From the NCBI GenBank assembly GCA_945906725.1, contig CAMDRI010000006.1:1-64000 (forward strand): DNA of 64,000 bases, in the 5' to 3' direction. The DNA comes from Candidatus Kuenenia stuttgartensis. GTDB lineage: Bacteria; Planctomycetota; Planctomycetia; Planctomycetales; Planctomycetaceae. The notes under the pieces were generated by a model. That model worked only from the letters and a program-made list of their open reading frames with translations. It did no database searches and had not been told where the DNA came from. Positions 1,417 through 58,900 of the stretch are shown here, piece after piece. Position numbers and translations under genes: made by a program. Numbering within the stretch: the stretch's first letter is position 1; the number at the start of each line of letters is the position of its first letter.

Positions 1417-4400
1417 CTATTGCCGCATCAAGTTCAGCAGCACGTCGTCTTTCAAGTCTCGCGCACCTGACGCTGATTGCTTCGCGAGCATCTCTCCCAG
1501 TTCGCGCAACGACTCTTGCCGCGAGCACGCGACCGACAGTAACCAGTCATCCCAGACGCGCGTTCGAGTTGCCGAGTTGTTCTTGCCGGCTTGCACTTCC
1601 CACAGCGTGATCTGCTGCCGTACCAGAGTTTCGGCAACGGCGGGAGCCCTGTTTGCAAAATGAATCAGCGCCAGCAGGACATGAATTCGATCGCTGGGCC
1701 GCTGCTTCATTTGCTCTTCGACGAAGGCGTCCAACTCTGCCAACCGATCCGCCTCGCGAGCGGCCTCAACCAGCAAGAATGCCGAGGATTTCAAATCTGA
1801 GATTTGAGATTTGAGATCGGCGATTTCGGATTTCGGATTTCGGATTTCGGATTTCCCGGCCAACGAGCCGGTGAGCATCCGCATCGACTTCACACCGTCA
1901 TTCGGCAGCGACCACGCCCGCCACAACTCGTACCGTTCCTGAGCTGGACGCGACTTCAGTTTTGCTTCCAGAATCGCCAAAACCGGACCAGGATTTTCGT
2001 CGGAATACCGATCTGGCCAGCGTGCATCCGCGACTTGAGCCAGCAGAGTGATCGCCTCCTGAGTCAGCCCGGCCGAGGCGTAGTCGGTCGCGATCGCAAG
2101 CAGTTCCAGCCGTCGCAGATGTTGGCCGTCCATCGCACCGGTCGCGGACCAGACTTGATCCATGTGCCGAAAATGAGCCGAGACGGTCTCCTTGGCCTTG
2201 TCGATTTGACCGTCGGCCAGTTGTTGCTTCGCGATCCAACGGCGCATGTCGGCCAGTGGATGCTCGCTGCGTGAATAGGCTTTGCTGAGCGGCGCAATCA
2301 GATTCTCGAAGAGCTTGGCTACTTGGACGCGACGTTGCGTCAGCGGCGCGAGAAGCGAGACGATGTGTGTGGCGATGCGGCTGCTTTGAAACACCGGTTG
2401 CGACCAATCGAGGTCTTCGAGTTGCACCAGTTCGGCATCCAGTCGCTGCTCGTTGTTCGTCTGCCGCGCCAGCAGCAATTGAATCAACCGCAGCGGCAAC
2501 TTGTACTTCACGGTCTTCTCCCGCTCCGCCAGTCGCTGAGCGAGTTGGTCATTCCGCTTTTCTGCAATCGCCTGCTCGACGAGTCGCAGAGCGAGGCTCT
2601 GCGGCCGGGCCTCCGTAGGCCGGACGCTCACGTCCGGTCTCTCCACCGCGAACACAAAAACCTTGTCGGGCCGGTTCGTCGGCAGTACGCATTCCAACAA
2701 CGTCGTGAAGATCTCGTCTGCGGAAACTCCACTGGCTCGCCACTCCGGCTCCAGTGTGTCCCAGGTGGCCAGGATGTCCTCGCTGAGATTGACCACCGAC
2801 AAGAACACATCATCAAGCGGTTCAGCTTGAGTCTGCGTCCTGGAAGATATCTTCTTTGAGCCGTTGATCGCATCGCGGAAGATCGCCAACGACAGATCAG
2901 GCATCTCAGCGCTGAGCGTCAATCGGCAAAGGTCTCGTGCGCGATTCAACCGCGTGATTGTCCAATTCACCGACCAGACGAACTGTTTGCCAATCAGCAT
3001 CGGGACCGCATCCTCGGCCGAGCGTGGCCGCAGGACATCTTCGGCCAGCCGAGTCCACAGCGTCCGCGCGAGTTGCTTGTCGCCGGACTTGAGAGCCAAC
3101 TCGCCACGCTCACGCAGGATTGCCCATTGGAAACGCGGGTCGAAGTGCAGCGAGGCGGATTCGGTCGCGAGATCCGCGAGTTCGTGGCCGAGCTTTCGAT
3201 ATTCCTCGCGAGCGAGACATTCGCGTGCGACCAGCCACACGCCAAGTTGCGGATGAAAGCCCGCTGGAGCGTTGCGCGATCGCTCGGTTTTCAGGTACGA
3301 CTTCGCGGTCTCGACGAGTTGCGGAAGAGCAGTGCGTTCGGGCGAAGAATTCGGGGCGAAGAGTTCTGTCAGCGATGCGAGGATCGCGAGCGACAGATCC
3401 GTAGGATGCTCCGCCTTCGGCGGATTGCCCGTCTTGTTTTTTTCATTCGCGCTGTCGGACGGACGGTCAAGAGTGCCCATCCTGCGCAGCGACTCAGTCC
3501 ACTTCGCCCACAAGTCTTTGTCCTTCACGGTTACCTTGAGCAGCGACACGAACGGACTATCAAGCCGCAGGTTCGTCAGCGAATCACCGGTGACGTGCGA
3601 GAGCAGATCGATACCGCCGGGAGGGCGATCGTTCGCCGATGCGAGGATCGTCGGCAGCATCTCTGGTTTGATCGCCGCTCGCGAGTTCGCGAATCGCTGT
3701 TCGAGTTGCTCCAACCACGTCCCGCCATCGCTGTTGTTGGCTCCCGGCAATTGCCAGCGCGTGATCATCGCTTGAGCCAACTTCGCAGCGACGTAGGGCT
3801 GATCGATCTCAGCGGCGATCTTCGCCGCCTCGACGAACAGCGGGCTGCCGGCTTGCCGAGTCAGCTCGGCCGGATCATCCAGCCCCGCCAGCATCCGATT
3901 CACGATCCGCACCGCCAGTTGCTGCATCGACGGTTCTTTGCCGAACCAGCGGCAGTGTTCGAGAACCGTCTCTGTGTCGGATGAAAGTTCGTAGAACGAC
4001 GCGGCCGAATTGAAGTCCTGTGCATGCGCGAGTTCGACGCCGATGCCGCAGGTTAGCAAGTCAAAGCCTTGATAGTCCGATAACTTTGGTCCGAACTGGA
4101 TCGGGAATGCATCGGATTTGGGGATGACGATGGCGAACAACTTCTTGGCCTCGTCGAGCTTTCCTTGTTTGAGCCGAATCATTCCGAGCGTGACGTTCCC
4201 TCCGAGCGTCCAATCGGGATGCGTCTGTCTCGCCGCTTCGACGATCGCGGCGAGTTCATCGAGTCGCTTCAACTGCGCCGCGAGTTCAACCGTTCGCCGA
4301 GTCATCGAATCAATCTGTTTGCCGCTGTGCCGCCGAGACACATCGATGCCGTACCACGGTCCCGGTGATTTGCGGGTCTCGTCCGGCACGGCCAAATCGC

Positions 4401-7400
4401 GTGCGATTGGCCACATCTCTTCCTGTTGCCAGACCGACTCGCTCACGACCAGCAATTGAGCAGCCAGCATCGGACGAAAGTCGGGGGCTTCGCGGAATGC
4501 TTTCTCGAACAGTTGGATGATGAGCTTGGCTCGGATCGGCGGGCCTTCCAGGCGTTGGACAATGCGGCGGAAGAGTTCCACTCGCTGCTGATCGTTCACG
4601 GCGAGCTTCGATTTCAGCACGATGGCCGCCAGCTCATCGACGTGGCCGAGTTCCGACAGAATTTGTTCCGCCTCGAACAACACTTGAGCAGTCGCGTTGG
4701 GCAGGCGCTCGATGGCGAACAAGAAGTGCGGCACCGCGAGCTGCGCCTTGCCGGCCGAGACCAACGCTCGCGCGAGCGTCAGCCGGAACTGCGGATCTGG
4801 AGCGTTACTGTCTGCCAGTCGGACGAGCAGCTTCGCGATCTTCTCCCCCGAACCAGAACGACGCGCCAGCGAGTGGTCTTTGTTGTCCGACGTTCGACCA
4901 CTCGCTGGCGCGTCGTGCTGATGGTCTTCCGCCCCGTACAACTCGGCCAATTGCCCGAACAGTTTCAGCGACTGCGGTGAGCGATCGAATTGTTGCTCCG
5001 CCTGTTCGATGAGCGGCCCCAGGCGTCCTTGCTGACCCAGCAGCGCGAGCGCCCTCGTGCGGGCGGTCGAGGTCGTCGTGATGACGCGTGCCTGCTGACC
5101 GCCGCCGAACGTCGATTGCTGCACGCTGCCAATCAGCGTGTTGGCCGGCGAGGTGCGGCGAATGATCTGCTCCGCAATCTGACACGCCTCGTCGAGCTTC
5201 TTAGCCTCGATCCGTTCCTGCATGGCCTGTTGCAGCACCGCGAGGTTATTCCCCGCTCGCTGAGGCAACCGCTGCCGAATCGCCTCGGCCTGTTCGTGCA
5301 GCCCCAACCCCGACAACGTTGAGGCCAGTTGCTGTTCCTCGGCCGGGTCCAGCTTCATCCCAAACAACCGCTCGGCGGCCACGCGCAGGCGTTCGACGCT
5401 ATTCGTCTTCACTGCCAGTCGCACGGCGCGCTGCTCAATTTCTTTCCGCAGCTTGCCGTCGTTCGTCTCGATCCGATCGAGCAGTTCCAACGCCTCGGCA
5501 AATTGTTCGCGGTGCTGGAAGAAGAAGGCGATGTCGCTTTGCAAATCAGGATTTCGCTCGGTCACATCGAAGAGCCGCCGCATGACCGGCAACGCCGCGT
5601 CGTACTCGTTGCTCCAAACGTGGAGGCACGACAACGCCAGCAACCCGAGGAACTGCTTTCGCGACTTGGGCTCGGCCTGCGCGACCTTCGTTTGCCAACG
5701 CTCGCGCAACGCAGCCGACCATTTGTGCTCAGCGGCGATCGCGTGAGCCTGAAACAGAACTTGCAGCACGGCGGAGTCCAAGTCATCGGTGATCGTCGGG
5801 AAATCGACGGTGATCGGCTTCCAGCGTTCGGGTGTCAGCCAGACAAGCCAGTTTTGCCCCGACTGAGCGGTCGATGCGGCTTGCACCGGAGTCACGGTCG
5901 ATGCCGGCACGCTCGTCGAATGCAGGATGTAAACCAAACGAGTCGCGAACCCATTCGACCGTCGCGGCAACTGCGGATGCGAAAGCGGTTCCCAGACGTC
6001 GTCGAGCAGTTTCAGGATGCGCTCCTGCGACTGCTCAGCTGGGAGGGTTCTCCGAATCATCAACTGCTGTACCCACCACGCGACGAACTCTGGATTGCCC
6101 GGCCGGAATTCGGACTTTGGCAGGGCCGCGAATCCCGGAGTGGCCGCGACCGTTTGAACGTACTTCGACAAAAGTCGCAGCACTTCGTCGTTGTCGTTTC
6201 GCTCCGCCGCACGCCGCACGAGCCAGCCCAAGATGTTCGGATTCGGGCTTGTCTCTTCAGCTTCTTTGAGCAACGCCGCCAGTCGCTCCGACTGCCCAGC
6301 ACGGAGGAATTCGCGCGCGATCAACTCTGGCAACGAGTAATCCGAACCCCAACTCAGCACGTCATCTTGAGGCAGCAACCGTCGCAGCGAAGCCACCAGC
6401 CGATCAATCACCGCGCCTTCGAGCGGCTCGCCCGCGAGTGTTGGCTGCGGTCCGTACGAACTGCCGGTTCTTTCCGCTCGGAGAAATACCAGCGACTGCA
6501 CCGCCAGCCAATCGACGGCCGGATCATCCGGTGCCACCGCCTGTAAATCGAGGCACGCCTTGAAGAGTGGCTCATTGGGACCGGTAAACGACAGCCACCA
6601 GTAAACCTCATCCCACGCGCGGCGGAGTTGCGAGTCGTCACTCGTGTCGTGCGTGACTCGCGGGCGACGCGTCTCGCCAATTCGTCCGTAATCGTGCAGT
6701 CCTTGCACACCCACCATCAGCCGGCCGTCGATGGCGATTCGCCGAGCTTCGCCAAAATCAACGATCGGCATTTCCGGCATTCGCATCCGTCGACGTAGCC
6801 GCTCAACCCGATCGAACAGCGACCCCTTCGCCGTCGAATTGGGAACGAGAATGCTCGGCGCATCATCCGACAACGGCAGCTTGAGCAGTTCATTGCGAAC
6901 GACCAAGGCTTTGTCCGCTTCACCGAGCACCGCCAACGCGAAGGCCTGACGAACCAGGAACTCCCAATTCTGGGGGTCGCGATCGAGCGACGCCTGCGCG
7001 AGCGTCAACGCCAGCCGCAACTGTTGTTTTTCCGTCGGACCATTGGCTGACGTGAGCAATCGGTCGATCTCACGCAACACCTTGACCGGATCGCGTTCGG
7101 TTTCGAGCCATCGCGTCGCCAAGATGTCGGCATCGGCATCGTGACCGGCTCGGCGAAGCAACACAATCAAATGTTCGTCGGCCTCGCGTTTGCGAGTCAC
7201 TTCAGCCAGCCTCTGTTGATGAGCGATCGCAGCCGCCAAGTCTCCCGTCGATTCACACAGCGAGACCATTCGGGCCAGCAGTGCGGGGTCTCGCGGAGCT
7301 TGTGGCAACCAGCGCTCCAACTCACGCCGCGCCTGCTGCGTGTCTCCCGCTTGCTCGTGAACTTGGACCAACGCCAGCGACGCATCCCGCCGCAACTTCG

Positions 7401-10050
7401 GCTCGGTGCGATACCGCTCCAGTCGCTGCGTCAGCTTCGCGAACTCACCAGGGAAGACGGATAGCTCGGCGAGCTTGCGGACGATTTCGATGCGGTCGTC
7501 GGGCTTCGCAGTCTGCTCGAAGACGCGCCAGAGGATTTCGCGGGCCTCGATGAGGGGGCTGAGGGCTGAGGACTGCGAGGCAAGGGCCGCCGCATTCTTT
7601 GTTCTGTCCTCGCCCCTCAGTCCTTGCCCCTCAGCCGGTAATTCCATCAGCCGTTCGACCAGCTTCAGTCCCAGCCGTTTGTCCGCCACGTTCTGCCGTG
7701 ACGCTCGCCGCAGGATTTGCAACGCCTCGGTGCTCTGCCCGAACCGCAGACAGACATCGACGACGAACTCCACGTTTTCCGGATTCCCTGGAGTGGCCGC
7801 GAGCAATTGCCGCCCCGCCTTCAACGCCTTCTCTTTGCGGCCGAGCTTCTGTTCGAGTTCCGCGATCGAGCGGAGCGAATCGATCTTGAATCGTCGATCG
7901 ATCTTCAACAGCCGTTCATAAAGCTCGACCGCCGAAAGCCACTGGCTGTCGAGCGTCAGCATTCTCGCTGCAGCTTGAAGGAAGACGCCGTTACGCGGCG
8001 CGAGATGGATGGCTTTGCGCGCGGCAACGGTTGCTTCACGCAGTTTGTCGGCGGCTTCGAGGTATTTGGCCAAGCGGAAGTACTGTGCTGCGGGAGTCTC
8101 CGCCACATGCTCCAACTTCCCTTGGGTGAGGGTCTCGGTTTCTTTAACATTTTTGCCGGACTTGTCGTCGGTGGGCTTATTCAGTTTGGCTGTGCCGCGA
8201 TCGGGAGTCGCTTGGACCGACGGTCCCTTACCCGGCCTTCGGCCACCCTCTCCCAAGGGGGTAGGGGACGTTGACGATGCCTTTGCGAGTTCGGCTTGTA
8301 ATTCTTCGATGCGGCCGGTCAGCAACTCGGACTCAGACAACACCTTGACCTCGACCTGCACAACGCGGTCGAACGTCTCCGGCGTGTCGGCCAGCGCAGC
8401 GGCTTGGGCGAGCGCGGACATGGTCGAATCAAACTGCTTCCACTTACGACGCAGTTCGGCCTGCTGAAATCGCAGTTCCAGCGACTTGCGATCCAACTCG
8501 CACGCCGCATCGATGGTCGTCAGCGTCTCATCGCGATATCCGAACCGAGAAAACACGTCTGCCAATTGCGCCAGGTTGTTCGCGTTGCGTCGCGGTTCCT
8601 CGGCCATCGACCGCCACGCCGCCAGAGATTCGTCCTTCTTGCCGGCCGAGTCCAACACCTCGCCAAGTTGTTCGCGGTGCGAGAGCGTTTCCGGTTCCAA
8701 CTCGATCGCCCGCCTCAGTAACTCTTCCGAGTCGTGCAGCAGCGACTTGTCGGCCGATGACATCAACCCCGCGACCTGCGCTGCAACGACCGCGTCGTTC
8801 GGCTTCGCCTCGACGAGCTTTCGCCAGATGGAGGCAGCAGCCTTCGCTTGCTCGGACCGATCGATGTCGTCCTGACCTCTAACCTCTGCCCCCTGCCCCC
8901 TCAAAACTGCGAACCCCCAATCGCGGAGGTAATCGGGATTGTTCGGTGCGATTCGATCGAGCTGCGCGAATTGCGCGATCACTTCGGCGAACTGCTGGTC
9001 CGACTGCAACAGCTCGATCAGTTCCAATCGCAGGTCAACGGAGGACGGCGCGAGCATGATGCCCGCTTCCAACCGCGTCCGCGCATCCTTCCGACGGTCT
9101 TGCGAGACTAACGCTCGCGACAGCCGCACCACCGCATCGAGATCCTCCGGTTGCTTCAACAGCCGCTCTTCGTAGTGCTTTATGAGGCCCGCCGCATCGT
9201 CCTTCGTGAGGAACGCCTCCTCGACACGCCGCCGAGTTTCTCGAAACAGCCAGTGGTCCGGCTTCAGCCCACCGAGAAGTTGATCGGCCTCGGCCAGCGC
9301 TCTCTCAAACTGTCCCAGCTTCAGCCGCAGATCAACCGCTTCGAGTTCAAACTCCGACCGCTGATACAAGTCCTTCGTCGCTTTTGCCAACGCCTCGAAT
9401 CGAGGCAACGCTGCCTCCCAATGCCCATCGTCGAGTAATGTCTTCGCAACCAACTGCGGCACGCGCGGATCGTTTGGGACGAGTTTCTCCAACCGCGTCC
9501 AAACCTCGACCACCTTGTCTCCGGGAGCCAGCCGCTGTTGCACGCGGCCGAGCGTTTGGAACACATCGAGCAAATCGGTCGGTGCCGGCCGTCGCTGGAT
9601 CGCTCGTTCGAGAGCCTCGGCCGCATCCGGCCAGCGATTGAGTGTCATCAAGTTCTGGCCGAGCACGAATGATGCCACCGCGCTCTTCGGCAGCAATGCC
9701 TCCGAGCGTTCCAAGGCTGTCTGAGCGGATTCGGCATCACCCTGCGAGGCCTCAATCAGTCCGACCACCAACCAGGCTCGGCCCGCATCTTCGAATTCAG
9801 TCGCCTCGGCTTGCTCTCGCAACCGAGTGATCAACTCATCGAGCGACTCGTGATCGACATGAAACTCAACCACCTTGTCGAGCGCGGTCCCCCGTCTCGG
9901 ATTGCGCTCCAGAACGAGCAGAAACCGGTCAGCCGTTTTACGAGCTTCCGCCTCGGCTACGTCCTCGTCTTGCGAGAAAATCGGTCGTGCGACAAAGACG
10001 CACAAGCTGATCAAGAGGGCGAAGCCAAACACAAACAGGCGGGTATTCAA
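1417..10050 (-). CDS. Giant exported tetratricopeptide-repeat protein (2877 aa)
   Basis: This is one of the longest proteins expected in a bacterium. The start is a TTG at 10050 with GGAG about ten bases upstream; no in-frame ATG fits better. Residues 1-27 form a signal peptide or membrane anchor (LFVFGFALLISLCVFVA...FSQ). The rest is almost entirely helical TPR-like repeats, with recurring patterns such as A...L..A..L.P......L......L. It has no catalytic domain I recognise, so a scaffold or binding role in the periplasm or membrane is an inference. At least seven stretches do not look like TPR and match nucleotide repeats found elsewhere in the window: around residues 380-393, 592-620, 804-833, 1712-1731, 2189-2198, 2469-2491 and 2731-2752. 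All keep the frame open. ORFs such as 5329..6546 on the plus strand are shadows of it. Confidence 0.88.
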   Translation of the reverse strand: MNTRLFVFGFALLISLCVFVARPIFSQDEDVAEAEARKTADRFLLVLERNPRRGTALDKVVEFHVDHESLDELITRLREQAEATEFEDAGRAWLVVGLIEASQGDAESAQTALERSEALLPKSAVASFVLGQNLMTLNRWPDAAEALERAIQRRPAPTDLLDVFQTLGRVQQRLAPGDKVVEVWTRLEKLVPNDPRVPQLVAKTLLDDGHWEAALPRFEALAKATKDLYQRSEFELEAVDLRLKLGQFERALAEADQLLGGLKPDHWLFRETRRRVEEAFLTKDDAAGLIKHYEERLLKQPEDLDAVVRLSRALVSQDRRKDARTRLEAGIMLAPSSVDLRLELIELLQSDQQFAEVIAQFAQLDRIAPNNPDYLRDWGFAVLRGQGAEVRGQDDIDRSEQAKAAASIWRKLVEAKPNDAVVAAQVAGLMSSADKSLLHDSEELLRRAIELEPETLSHREQLGEVLDSAGKKDESLAAWRSMAEEPRRNANNLAQLADVFSRFGYRDETLTTIDAACELDRKSLELRFQQAELRRKWKQFDSTMSALAQAAALADTPETFDRVVQVEVKVLSESELLTGRIEELQAELAKASSTSPTPLGEGGRRPGKGPSVQATPDRGTAKLNKPTDDKSGKNVKETETLTQGKLEHVAETPAAQYFRLAKYLEAADKLREATVAARKAIHLAPRNGVFLQAAARMLTLDSQWLSAVELYERLLKIDRRFKIDSLRSIAELEQKLGRKEKALKAGRQLLAATPGNPENVEFVVDVCLRFGQSTEALQILRRASRQNVADKRLGLKLVERLMELPAEGQGLRGEDRTKNAAALASQSSALSPLIEAREILWRVFEQTAKPDDRIEIVRKLAELSVFPGEFAKLTQRLERYRTEPKLRRDASLALVQVHEQAGDTQQARRELERWLPQAPRDPALLARMVSLCESTGDLAAAIAHQQRLAEVTRKREADEHLIVLLRRAGHDADADILATRWLETERDPVKVLREIDRLLTSANGPTEKQQLRLALTLAQASLDRDPQNWEFLVRQAFALAVLGEADKALVVRNELLKLPLSDDAPSILVPNSTAKGSLFDRVERLRRRMRMPEMPIVDFGEARRIAIDGRLMVGVQGLHDYGRIGETRRPRVTHDTSDDSQLRRAWDEVYWWLSFTGPNEPLFKACLDLQAVAPDDPAVDWLAVQSLVFLRAERTGSSYGPQPTLAGEPLEGAVIDRLVASLRRLLPQDDVLSWGSDYSLPELIAREFLRAGQSERLAALLKEAEETSPNPNILGWLVRRAAERNDNDEVLRLLSKYVQTVAATPGFAALPKSEFRPGNPEFVAWWVQQLMIRRTLPAEQSQERILKLLDDVWEPLSHPQLPRRSNGFATRLVYILHSTSVPASTVTPVQAASTAQSGQNWLVWLTPERWKPITVDFPTITDDLDSAVLQVLFQAHAIAAEHKWSAALRERWQTKVAQAEPKSRKQFLGLLALSCLHVWSNEYDAALPVMRRLFDVTERNPDLQSDIAFFFQHREQFAEALELLDRIETNDGKLRKEIEQRAVRLAVKTNSVERLRVAAERLFGMKLDPAEEQQLASTLSGLGLHEQAEAIRQRLPQRAGNNLAVLQQAMQERIEAKKLDEACQIAEQIIRRTSPANTLIGSVQQSTFGGGQQARVITTTSTARTRALALLGQQGRLGPLIEQAEQQFDRSPQSLKLFGQLAELYGAEDHQHDAPASGRTSDNKDHSLARRSGSGEKIAKLLVRLADSNAPDPQFRLTLARALVSAGKAQLAVPHFLFAIERLPNATAQVLFEAEQILSELGHVDELAAIVLKSKLAVNDQQRVELFRRIVQRLEGPPIRAKLIIQLFEKAFREAPDFRPMLAAQLLVVSESVWQQEEMWPIARDLAVPDETRKSPGPWYGIDVSRRHSGKQIDSMTRRTVELAAQLKRLDELAAIVEAARQTHPDWTLGGNVTLGMIRLKQGKLDEAKKLFAIVIPKSDAFPIQFGPKLSDYQGFDLLTCGIGVELAHAQDFNSAASFYELSSDTETVLEHCRWFGKEPSMQQLAVRIVNRMLAGLDDPAELTRQAGSPLFVEAAKIAAEIDQPYVAAKLAQAMITRWQLPGANNSDGGTWLEQLEQRFANSRAAIKPEMLPTILASANDRPPGGIDLLSHVTGDSLTNLRLDSPFVSLLKVTVKDKDLWAKWTESLRRMGTLDRPSDSANEKNKTGNPPKAEHPTDLSLAILASLTELFAPNSSPERTALPQLVETAKSYLKTERSRNAPAGFHPQLGVWLVARECLAREEYRKLGHELADLATESASLHFDPRFQWAILRERGELALKSGDKQLARTLWTRLAEDVLRPRSAEDAVPMLIGKQFVWSVNWTITRLNRARDLCRLTLSAEMPDLSLAIFRDAINGSKKISSRTQTQAEPLDDVFLSVVNLSEDILATWDTLEPEWRASGVSADEIFTTLLECVLPTNRPDKVFVFAVERPDVSVRPTEARPQSLALRLVEQAIAEKRNDQLAQRLAEREKTVKYKLPLRLIQLLLARQTNNEQRLDAELVQLEDLDWSQPVFQSSRIATHIVSLLAPLTQRRVQVAKLFENLIAPLSKAYSRSEHPLADMRRWIAKQQLADGQIDKAKETVSAHFRHMDQVWSATGAMDGQHLRRLELLAIATDYASAGLTQEAITLLAQVADARWPDRYSDENPGPVLAILEAKLKSRPAQERYELWRAWSLPNDGVKSMRMLTGSLAGKSEIRNPKSEIADLKSQISDLKSSAFLLVEAAREADRLAELDAFVEEQMKQRPSDRIHVLLALIHFANRAPAVAETLVRQQITLWEVQAGKNNSATRTRVWDDWLLSVACSRQESLRELGEMLAKQSASGARDLKDDVLLNLMRQ
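1797..1856. repeat. AT-rich repeat (family A) inside the TPR gene
   Basis: Tandem GATTTGAGATTT and CGGATTTCGGATTT units interrupt GC-rich coding sequence. On the coding strand they give KSEIRNPKSEIADLKSQISD, unlike the flanking TPR helices. The same units recur between genes at 16723, 34696 and inside the DUF1553 gene at 40976. Confidence 0.8.
2580..2645. repeat. Palindromic repeat inside the TPR gene
   Basis: Consecutive hairpins occur here: CAGAG/CTCTG, then GGCC turns, then CCGGACG...CGTCCGG. The coding strand reads ERPDVSVRPTEARPQSLAL, which breaks the helical repeat pattern. No second copy was found in the window, so assignment as a mobile repeat rests on its structure and on the break in the protein pattern. 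Confidence 0.5.
3457..3487. repeat. Partial family D repeat inside the TPR gene
   Basis: GACGGTCAAGAGTGCCC matches one arm of the perfect inverted repeat at 55897-55963, with a near match continuing into CATCCT. In the protein it gives RRMGTLDRPSD, located in a low-complexity break between TPR segments. Confidence 0.7.
4858..4916. repeat. Family B inverted repeat inside the TPR gene
   Basis: A perfect 21-base inverted repeat begins with ACGACGCGCCAGCGAG; its arms are 4858-4878 and 4896-4916. It is translated as HQHDAPASGRTS followed by HSLARRSGSG. Copies occur after lepA (12215-12272) and inside the heme dehydrogenase (57343-57369), where the peptide HQHDAPASSR reappears. Confidence 0.88.
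7553..7640. repeat. CT-rich repeat inside the TPR gene
   Basis: GGGGCTGAGGGCTGAGGACTG faces CCTCGCCCCTCAGTCCTTGC, giving a loose inverted arrangement of CTGAGG-type units. It encodes GQGLRGEDRTKNAAALASQ, an abrupt departure from the TPR pattern. Confidence 0.6.
8195..8275. repeat. CCCTCTCCC-type repeat inside the TPR gene
   Basis: The block ACCCGGCCTTCGGCCACCC plus CTCTCCCAAGGGGGTAGGGG forms short nested hairpins. It encodes SPTPLGEGGRRPGKGPS, a proline/glycine-rich insert in otherwise helical sequence. Confidence 0.62.
8872..8912. repeat. Short CCTCTGCCCCCTG tandem repeat inside the TPR gene
   Basis: Degenerate tandem units (CCTCTAACCTCTGCCCCCTG) encode LRGQGAEVRGQD. The insert lies between two TPR segments. 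It is simple-sequence-like and no second copy was seen in the window. Confidence 0.5.
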
Positions 10051-10401
10051 AGCAGGAATCTCCGGCGCAGACCGATCGTCACGACGAGTCTATCGCGAGC
10101 CAAGATGGCCAGCCAGCAGCGGTTTTGATGCCGTCGTGATCGCTGTCCGCTGGAGTTCAGCACGTGGTTCGAGCCAAAACCAGCACTCGACCAACTCGCC
10201 GGAAACCGCTACCATCCCCTCCCCTCGAATGACACACCGAAATGACTTTCCCCGACCGGGCATGCTCAGGTGAGTTCCAGGCTTCTGCACTACTCGCTGT
10301 CGAGTGGTCGATCGCAAGTAACATGTGATCCCGGAGTCGCGCAAAAGCCGACGAGCCACCGGGGCAAGCTCGGTGGATTGGCTTTGTTGGTTAAAGGTTT
10401 C
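10051..10401. other. Divergent intergenic region TPR gene / lepA
   Basis: This 351-base gap holds the promoters of the divergent TPR gene and lepA. The track extends lepA to a GTG at 10270, but that part has no family similarity. An imperfect palindrome (CACTACTCGCTG/CGAGTGGT, 10287-10312) resembles a degraded family B repeat. No gene is supported. Confidence 0.5.
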
Positions 10402-12207
<1,806 letters not shown>

Positions 12208-12214
12208 GTGGCCT

Positions 12215-12272
12215 AGCACGACGCGCCAGCGAGTAGTCGCACATCAGCAGTCACTCGCTTGCGCGTCGTGCT
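12215..12272. repeat. Family B inverted repeat after lepA
   Basis: The arms AGCACGACGCGCCAGCGAGT and the nearly complementary ACTCGCTTGCGCGTCGTGCT flank a loop of about 15 bases. It is the same sequence as the intragenic copy at 4858-4916. It could serve as a transcription end structure, but no T-run follows directly. Confidence 0.85.
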
Positions 12273-12328
12273 CGTTTTGCGGTCACTCGTTAAAACGGTG
12301 TCACTTCAGCGGGCGAAGGAGACATTTC

Positions 12329-55996: not shown

Positions 55997-58900
55997 ATGC
56001 TCAGAACCGCTCGCAGGGTTTGTCTCATTGTTATTGGCCTGTTGTCGCACCTCGAGACAACAGCATTCGGCCAAGGCTACTCGCCCGATGAAGCCATCAA
56101 GCGGATGAAAGTGGCGGACGGGTTCGGGGTCAACGTCGTCGCCAGCGAGCCGCTCGTACGGCAACCGGTCGCCATCGAGTTCGATGACCGCGGCCGGTTG
56201 TGGGTCATTCAGTATTTGCAGTACCCAAACCCGGCGGGGCTGAAGCGAGTGCAGGTCGATCGCTTCTCGCGGACGAAGTACGACCGAGTGCCGGAACCGC
56301 CCCCGAAGGGGCCGCGCGGAGCGGATCGAATCACGATCCTTGAAGACACCGACGGCGACGGCCGCATGGACCGCGGTCGCGATTTCATCGACGGGTTGAA
56401 CCTCACAACCGGGATTGCGTTCGGTCACGGCGGCGTGTTTGTGCTCAATGTGCCGTACTTACTGTTCTATCCCGACAAGAACCGAGATGACGTGCCAGAC
56501 AGCGATCCCGAAGTGCTGCTTAGTGGCTTCGGCATGGAGGACGCTCACAGCGTCGCAAACTCGCTGACATTTGGGCCGGACGGTTGGCTCTACGGCTGCC
56601 AAGGGAGCACTGTGACCGCGAACGTGCGCGGCATCGAGTTTCAACAGGGCGTGTGGCGGTATCACCCGCTGACGCGTGCGTTTGAACTCTTCTGCGAAGG
56701 AGGCGGCAACTCGTGGGGCCTGGACTTCGACCGCACCGGCCAATTGCTCTACAGCACGAACTGGGGCGGGCATGTCCTGCTGCATGGCGTGCAGGGGGGC
56801 TACCTCGTGAAGGCGTTTGCCAAACACGGAGCGTTGCACAACCCGCACGCTTACGGCTTCTTCGATCATGCTCCGCACAAGAATTTTCGGGGCGGGCATG
56901 TGACGGTCGGCGGCATCGTCTATCAAGGGGACTCGTTTCCGGATTCGTTCCGAGGCAAATACATCGCGGGAGACTTACTCGGCCACGGAGTTTATTGGCA
57001 CGACATCGAACCGCGCGGCTCGACGATTCAGACCGCTCATGGCGGCGAGTTGCTGGTGGCGAACGATTCATGGTTCGCACCGACCGACGTGACGATGGGG
57101 CCGGACGGCGCAATCTACGTTTCCGATTGGCACGACTCGCGTACGGCACATCCCGATCCCGACGCCGAATGGGACCGCTCGAACGGCCGGATTTACCGGA
57201 TCGCCGCGAAGGGATCGAAGCCCGCCGCGCTGATCGACTTTGCTAAGTTGCCAAATGACGAATTGTTGAAGCTGCACACACATCGTAATCAGTGGTACGT
57301 GCGGAGCGCACGGCAGGAGTTGGCGCGGCGCACGCCTCACCAGCACGACGCGCCAGCGAGTAGTCGGAACGAGGAAAAGGAAAAGCCGCCAGTCAACCAC
57401 CTGCTGCCGCTTCGGTCTGGTATCGAAACCTTGCGTCAGGTGGCGGTGATAGCAGCCGACGAAACGACGGCACTCGAAGCATTCTGGACGCTCAATGTCT
57501 GTGGTGGTTTCGACGAGGCGTTGGCGTTCAAACTGCTCGACAGCCCGCACGCGGCCGTGCGGATGTGGACGGTGCGTTTGCTCGGAGATCCGAAACAAGT
57601 GGTCTCGACCAAGATGGCTCATCGGCTGGATGACTTCGCGGAGACCGATCCGTCGGTCCATGTGCGAATGCAACTGGCTTGCACCGCCGCACGACTGCCG
57701 GCCCATCTGGCGATGCCGATCATCAACGCGAACATCAATCGAGACATCGACAACGCCGATCCGTTCGTGCCGCTGCTTTGGTGGTGGGCGATCGAACGGC
57801 ACAGTGTCAGTTCGGAGAACGGCGTCAACGGCCGAGACGAAGTGATGAAGCGCTTCGTCCGGTCCTCGCTGTGGAAATCGAAGCTGGGCAGCACGACGTT
57901 GCTACCGCGACTGCTTCGACGATACGGGGCCGAGGGAACATCTGCTGGTCATGCGGCGTGTTTGCAATTGCTCAAAGCCGCGCCGAATGATGCGGAACGA
58001 GACACGTTGCTGGCGTCGTTGCTCTCCGGTTGGCGAGAAACTCCGCGCGACGCGACTGCGCTGTCGCTGGAACTCACCGATTCGATCGTGTCACGCTGGA
58101 ATGCGAAGCCGGACGACAGCACGTTGCTCACGTTCGCGCTGGCGCTGAAGCATCGACCGGCCTACGACCGGACGTTAGCTGAGTGCCGGAACTCGCAGGC
58201 GGACCCCAATCGCAGGATCGCCCGACTCAGCCTGCTCGCCGAGGTGATTCAGCCGGACGCCACCGAACCGCTGTTGGCCATTGTAACCTCGGAGAAAGAG
58301 CCGGAATCGGTTCGATCCGCGGCGCTGGCCACGGTAGGTCGGTTCGGTAGCGATGAGGTCCGGACGCGATTGCTGGCGGAACTTTCGAAGTTGCCGCCGA
58401 AGCTGAAGAGCCAAACGATCGACCAGTTGCTCGGCCGCAAGTCGTCCGCCGCCGCGCTGCTCAATCGAGTCGATCGAGGTGAACTCAAGCCGAGCGATCT
58501 GCCAGCCGACCAAGTCCGCCGCGTCGCGCTGTTCGAGGACACAGAACTCGACGCGCTGGTCACGAAGCATTGGGGCAAGCTCGGTGCGGCGACTCGCGAG
58601 GAGAAACTGGCCGAGGTGCGGCGGCTCAACAACGACCTGCGAGCGGCTGGCGGCAACGCTGAAGCCGGAAAAGCGGTCTACAAAAAGCACTGTGCCGCGT
58701 GCCACCAGATTTTCGGCGAGGGAACGAAGCTCGGCCCGGACCTCACGACTGCAAATCGCAAGGACCGCGACTACTTGCTGATCAGCCTGGTCGATCCCAG
58801 CGTGGTCATTCGCAAAGAATTTCTCAGCCACATCGTGCAGACAGTCGACGGCCGGGTGCTCAACGGACTGATTGTCGAACGGAACGAATCGGGGCTGACG

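Follow-up and report, generated by a model that had tools for sequence, protein, structure and literature searches.

Short palindromic repeats that lie inside bacterial genes and are translated with them have been described before. Intragenic REPs tagged with GTAG or CGTC, including REP dimers 20-100 bp apart, are inserted in frame and encode 20-30 amino acids (Di Nocera et al. 2013, PMC3733652); there are genes with two REP inserts (uvrA and uvrB), two Xanthomonas recB genes hold different REPs at about the same site, in-frame REPs are known from Rickettsia, Opitutus and Xanthomonas, and planctomycetes are among the named carriers (PMC3733652). The classic case of dispersed palindromes that are translated in frame is that of the Rickettsia palindromic elements (Ogata et al. 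2000, 2002, cited in PMC5896051 and PMC3733652). The REPINs of Pseudomonas fluorescens are pairs of inverted repeats with a spacer that are predicted to form a hairpin and move as a unit (Bertels and Rainey 2011, PMC3116915), and in the mitochondria of Nematomorpha the arms of coding palindromes encode conserved protein regions (PMC6649704).

The gene studied here encodes a long TPR protein and lies in a 64,000-nucleotide stretch of planctomycete DNA, referred to below as the window. Its inserts resemble the intragenic REPs in being short palindromes, often dimers, that lie in frame, but the gene differs from those cases in that, over 12 species, more than ten families have refilled its eight predicted inter-helix sites, and in that most of its doublets lack GTAG. 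With the Rickettsia elements, compared by description only, the inserts share the character of in-frame dispersed palindromes, while for the concentration of inserts in one host gene, where several families replace one another at the same sites, we found no parallel in the second-hand accounts of those elements. Like REPINs, the doublets are inverted repeat pairs with a spacer; REPINs, however, are described as extragenic and tied to specific RAYTs, whereas the doublets of this genus are also intragenic and their link to a RAYT is unproven. The Nematomorpha palindromes are likewise inverted repeats inside translated genes, but the inserts of the TPR gene encode variable linkers and derive from dispersed repeats. 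In the literature searched, we found no description of one conserved gene in which many families occupy eight linker sites genus-wide with a choice of frame that matches linker chemistry. In-frame REPs are already known, and what is new is the repeated turnover of many families at the same eight sites of one gene.

The TPR gene occupies window positions 10050..1417 on the minus strand as a single open frame of 2,877 codons with a TTG start. The 2,877-aa product matches several Pfam TPR families and is of the TPR/alpha-solenoid type; a search of NCBIfam gave only sub-threshold TPR-family matches, and therefore no specific function is claimed. The periplasmic location given in the original prediction has one feature to point to it, a signal-peptide-like N-terminus judged by eye. 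The source genome of the window (G000) is metagenome-assembled (5.45 Mb, 268 contigs), as are the 11 congeners that together with it make up the 12 insert-bearing genomes. Named public counterparts of the congener MAGs come mostly from lake metagenomes, and the host bacteria are a group of freshwater-lake planctomycetes. Public MAGs of the same genus (records L066 and L070) bear the name Candidatus Kuenenia stuttgartiensis, which is clearly wrong because they carry the same TPR gene and are genus-level relatives. An orthologue was found in all 11 congeners, split over contigs in two of them, and its frame is open in every one. The core of the gene is under strong purifying selection (dN/dS 0.09-0.14 at dS 0.4-0.65 between orthologues), and the orthologue alignment consists of long conserved blocks interrupted at a handful of fixed positions.

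In the window gene the TPR pattern is broken by seven repeat-like stretches, all in frame, at about 1795-1854, 2600-2646, 3415-3490, 4849-4929, 7557-7644, 8116-8292 and 8848-8906, and an eighth site, 3613-3630, is almost empty there and filled in relatives. Across the 12 genomes these are eight fixed hypervariable positions that hold repeat-like DNA in each species, the type of repeat depending on the species. The alignment with 11 orthologues thus bears out the seven interruptions of the original prediction. Clean presence or absence of the segments, which it had expected among orthologues, is the exception, since most sites are filled in most species by different families, and orthologues sharing the same segments as conserved protein sequence were looked for and not found.

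All eight sites are read from the minus strand. Site s1 (8848..8906, aa 385-401) holds direct GGGGCAG/GGTCAG repeats in the window genome (VLRGQGAEVRGQ) and five other repeat families in congeners, giving six different occupants across the 12 genomes. Site s2 (8116..8292, aa 586-645) holds a SPTPLGEGGRRPGKGPS repeat, which a 455-kb sample of the window's genome matches three times (E<1e-3), and has eight different occupants among the 12 genomes. Site s3 (7557..7644, aa 803-830) is an imperfect inverted repeat with 29-nt arms (7557-7585 and 7608-7636, 79% complementary) and is empty in G001 and G009. Site s5 (4849..4929, aa 1707-1734) is a palindromic doublet with 25-nt arms and a 17-nt spacer, encoding HQHDAPASGRTSDNKDHSLARRSG; it is filled in seven genomes and empty in five (G011, G003, G002, G001 and G009). 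At s6 (3613..3630, aa 2141-2146) the window gene retains a short remnant, and full palindromic doublets are present in G007, G010, G002 and G004. Two contigs of G006 (C31 and C53; L039 and L040) both stop inside the TPR gene at this site, within an NPSPRRGEG-type repeat that probably broke the assembly. Site s7 (3415..3490, aa 2191-2212) carries a GTAGGATGGGCACTCTTGCCC-type doublet (RRMGTLDRPSD...) whose second arm has been overwritten by a CCGCC..GGCGG palindrome. Site s9 (2600..2646, aa 2469-2478) holds half of a GGACG-CCTA-CGTCC type element (ERPDVSVRPTEARPQS), for which the 455-kb sample gives no more than a weak match, and s10 (1795..1854, aa 2733-2752) is an AAATC-type direct repeat array (GKSEIRNPKSEIADLKSQISDLKSS) in which the number of units differs from species to species. 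HQHDAPASGR and MGTLARPSDDANDK are examples of peptides predicted within the protein.

The insert segments are repeat-derived. Self-comparison of the window gave copies elsewhere for 1787-1831, 3461-3483 and 4851-4944, and inverted repeats at 4854-4920 and 7557-7636. When segments from all orthologues were searched against the 455-kb sample of the window's genome (E<1e-3), 53% of 79 insert segments matched, compared to 2.75% of 400 length-matched core segments. Because these queries come from the TPR gene itself, a repeat library was also built solely from the intergenic DNA in 864 kb of the window's genome. Outside genes this library matched 157 places, or 1.44 per kb. Within genes it matched 33 (0.044 per kb), of which the TPR gene contributes three, at 1788-1830, 3426-3490 and 4851-4923. 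These are the very places (1797, 3457 and 4858) for which matches elsewhere in the window had originally been reported, and they are the only ones in the gene that the library finds. The s5 family has 60-81 matches in each of six congeners, with both strands counted and only 40 candidates scored per genome; in the window it is also found at 57317-57371 and at 12215-12276, the latter copy directly after an ORF (10270-12207) that resembles elongation factor 4 (LepA). As is the case for REP dimers and REPINs, the high copy number lies mainly outside genes.

An inverted-repeat search of the orthologues, made without any family as query, found 36 inverted repeats in the 12 genomes, with arms of 16-39 nt and spacers mostly of 5-72 nt, compared to about 0.04 per sequence after shuffling of synonymous codons. 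Every one of the 36 lies at a linker site of the TPR gene, and seven of the eight sites are represented; the inserts thus have the two similar inverted arms and short spacer of a REP dimer or REPIN. The number of intact doublets varies by genome, with none qualifying in G011 and one each in G000, G003 and G009. GTAG or GTGG with a stem-loop at the outer end is present on at least one arm in 10 of the 36 and on both arms in five, against 0.14% of shuffled arms, and the remaining 26 are untagged palindromic doublets. Inverted doublets account for most occupants, and direct-repeat arrays make up s10 and some occupants of other sites.

All 79 insert segments are stop-free in the gene frame, as had been read from the window gene, whereas the other five frames are each open in just 40-47 of these segments and contain 40-59 stops. 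Cysteine, tryptophan, tyrosine and phenylalanine together make up 0.67% of residues in the used frame compared to 5-13% in the other five, and the used frame is strictly best in 51 segments and tied best in 27. Three repeat families, of the GGATGGGCACTC, GTGGGGCACG and GGGAGGGCGAGG types, each keep to a single frame in all 19 forward-arm copies found in different genes. As in intragenic REPs, the repeats lie inside an open frame without stops and are predicted to be translated with it.

Structure prediction is supportive of a linker role. AlphaFold models of aa 300-900 and 1680-2877 were made from ten-sequence alignments (mean pLDDT 67 and 63), and in them all eight sites fall in segments with pLDDT<50, seven of the eight in breaks between helices. 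By model residue number, s1 in model 1 overlaps a loop (86-102, with pLDDT<50 at 88-94), the low-confidence segments of s2, s3, s5, s6, s7 and s9 are 292-352, 506-530, 30-55, 459-483, 514-538 and 788-804, and that of s10 (1037-1076) is partly modelled as helix. This placement is not decisive, because gappy columns are partly expected to give low pLDDT, and the models are consistent with the sites being linkers, mostly between helices. The proposal that the inserted peptides act as linkers in inter-repeat loops agrees with their fixed positions, with these low-confidence segments and with their linker-like composition.

The same elements occur in other genes of the genus, and the strong form of a gene-specific sink was rejected on this ground. 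In-frame doublets in coding DNA number 0.033 (G000) and 0.085 (G004) per kb, compared to 0.64 and 1.73 per kb between genes, densities that are approximate given a simple codon-usage gene caller and samples taken from contig starts; doublets are thus scarcer in genes than between them, a deficit that the removal of most insertions from genes would produce. Other hosts of in-frame doublets are a DEAH helicase with DUF3418, PSCyt/PSD1 proteins, a hydantoinase A/B fusion and a kinase-TPR protein. The DEAH-box helicase gene at L055:12647-16921 carries three in-frame palindromic doublets, two of which lie between domains (aa 261-287 and 877-931). In sampled stretches, doublets overall number 0-0.15 per kb in six other genomes, against 0.12 in G000 and 0.31 in G004. 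The repeat-tolerant sink of the original prediction therefore stands as an enrichment and falls as a unique property, as many genes carry doublets. The TPR gene of G004 has seven doublets where the other genes of that genome would predict 0.59 (P = 3e-6), and that of G000 has three library matches compared to 0.35 expected (Poisson P = 0.005, a value that is optimistic because the gene was chosen for having such repeats). The TPR gene is enriched for doublets, yet it is no unique sink.

On a core tree built without the insert columns, the eight sites account for at least 50 changes of occupant among the 12 genomes, with the occupants of each site labelled by eye. The same sites are refilled by different dispersed repeats, or by none, from species to species. 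Comparison of the genomes points to insertion and replacement, and dispersed DNA probably keeps replacing linkers of the protein while its reading frame stays unbroken. Insertion, purging, linker tolerance, decay and replacement together are, in our judgment, the most likely overall explanation, as far as can be read from the sequences. Short dispersed palindromic repeats, REP-dimer- or REPIN-like doublets with a few direct-repeat arrays, would insert genome-wide. Purging would remove any insertion that causes a frameshift, introduces a stop or sticky or oxidisable residues, or strikes a helix, whereas an insertion whose length is a multiple of three, and whose frame is soluble and free of stops, would be tolerated and translated when it lies in a linker between helices. 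Inserts would later decay by substitution, be overwritten by a newer repeat or be swapped through recombination between alleles, and the many inserts of the TPR gene would reflect its length and its many permissive linkers. A tentative extension is that an occupied palindromic linker is a preferred target for the next repeat, so that in such "sockets" one family would be overwritten by another and the protein would receive ready-made linkers in a compatible frame.

Allele exchange by recombination evidently occurs as well, since the gene is mosaic. Between species it could also place different families at the same site, and it probably contributes alongside insertion. The proteins of G000 and G005 are 93-98% identical over much of their length and only 19-28% over aa ~1070-1480, where G000 resembles G011, and at s5 the flank type (EKIAKLL or EKQTGLL) tracks whether the site is filled or empty and not the core tree. 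Exchange alone, however, makes no new families at a site, and at least six occupants at s1, eight at s2 and seven at s6 call for separate arrivals, which makes exchange unlikely as the main source of the diversity. The central segment (window 5600-6850, aa ~1070-1480) occurs in divergent allelic versions that cut across overall similarity. There G000 is 74-80% identical to G011 and 19-44% to G005, G007 and most others, and outside it G000 and G005 are at least 90% identical over long stretches; the pattern suggests domain exchange by recombination.

We also considered whether selection, acting on the RNA or the DNA, favours the hairpins themselves, for instance for ribosome pausing between TPR superhelices or for stability of the long mRNA, the family being irrelevant as long as a stem forms. 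The doublets would make very stable RNA stems (mean predicted MFE -60 kcal/mol) and occupy most sites in most species. Yet several species have one intact stem or none, as listed above, some species lack an occupant at s3, s5 or s7, the array at s10 consists of direct repeats, and eight distant homologues from other genera or families, of similar or greater length (3,354-4,266 aa), have no inverted doublets. Terminator-like sites in the TPR gene are no commoner than chance. Hairpin function was rejected as the main cause, and we regard it as quite improbable. Fast evolution of disordered, low-complexity linkers, with the likeness to repeats arising by slippage and chance, is less probable still. 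It would fit the direct-repeat arrays at s1, s3 and s10 of the window genome, which could grow in this way, and the content of disorder-promoting residues (70% of inserts against 48% of core), but it does not lead one to expect long, near-perfect inverted arms that are lost on synonymous shuffling, nor elements that are many-copy between genes and present in unrelated genes. An assembly or binning artefact is extremely unlikely, even though all insert-bearing genomes are MAGs and G006 contigs end within the s6 repeat, since wherever the gene lies on one contig its frame is unbroken through the inserts, as it is in all fragments of the two split copies, since MAGs of different lakes and projects show the same sites, and since the doublets common to relatives are diverged, not identical.

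For repeat insertion, the preferred explanation, the most plausible candidate mover is a Y1/HUH (RAYT-like) transposase. Y1_Tnp genes are present in 11 of the 12 genomes. The exception, G011, counts against the explanation, since neither a Y1 transposase nor an intact doublet of the TPR gene was detected there, yet degenerate inserts are present. A further point against it is that the GTAG/GTGG-tagged hairpin arm typical of REPs is borne by only about a quarter of the doublets. Proximity gave no clear tie to a RAYT, as the neighbourhoods of 20 sampled Y1 genes show no clear excess of the insert families. The number of Y1 genes correlates by rank with that of intact doublets in the TPR gene (rho 0.68, n=12), a relationship dropped as evidence because relatedness confounds it, as does genome size, which itself correlates with doublets (rho 0.74) and with Y1 count (rho 0.81). 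In G010, a CCCAGGGC..GCCCTGGG palindromic repeat lies on both sides of a Y1 transposase gene in L146 and is clustered beside a Y1 gene in L144, a REPtron-like arrangement; none of this family was seen in the TPR gene.

Identical linkers in unrelated proteins can cause false similarity matches and broken contigs. The TPR gene provides a natural replicate experiment, in which one conserved protein with eight linker positions has undergone many independent swaps of repeats for linkers in 12 species. Two questions thereby become testable: whether proteins merely tolerate the mobile palindromes of bacteria or draw usable linkers from them, and whether the insertion of these palindromes is targeted. 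If occupied linkers do act as sockets, they would be a standing mechanism to diversify the joints of long bacterial proteins.
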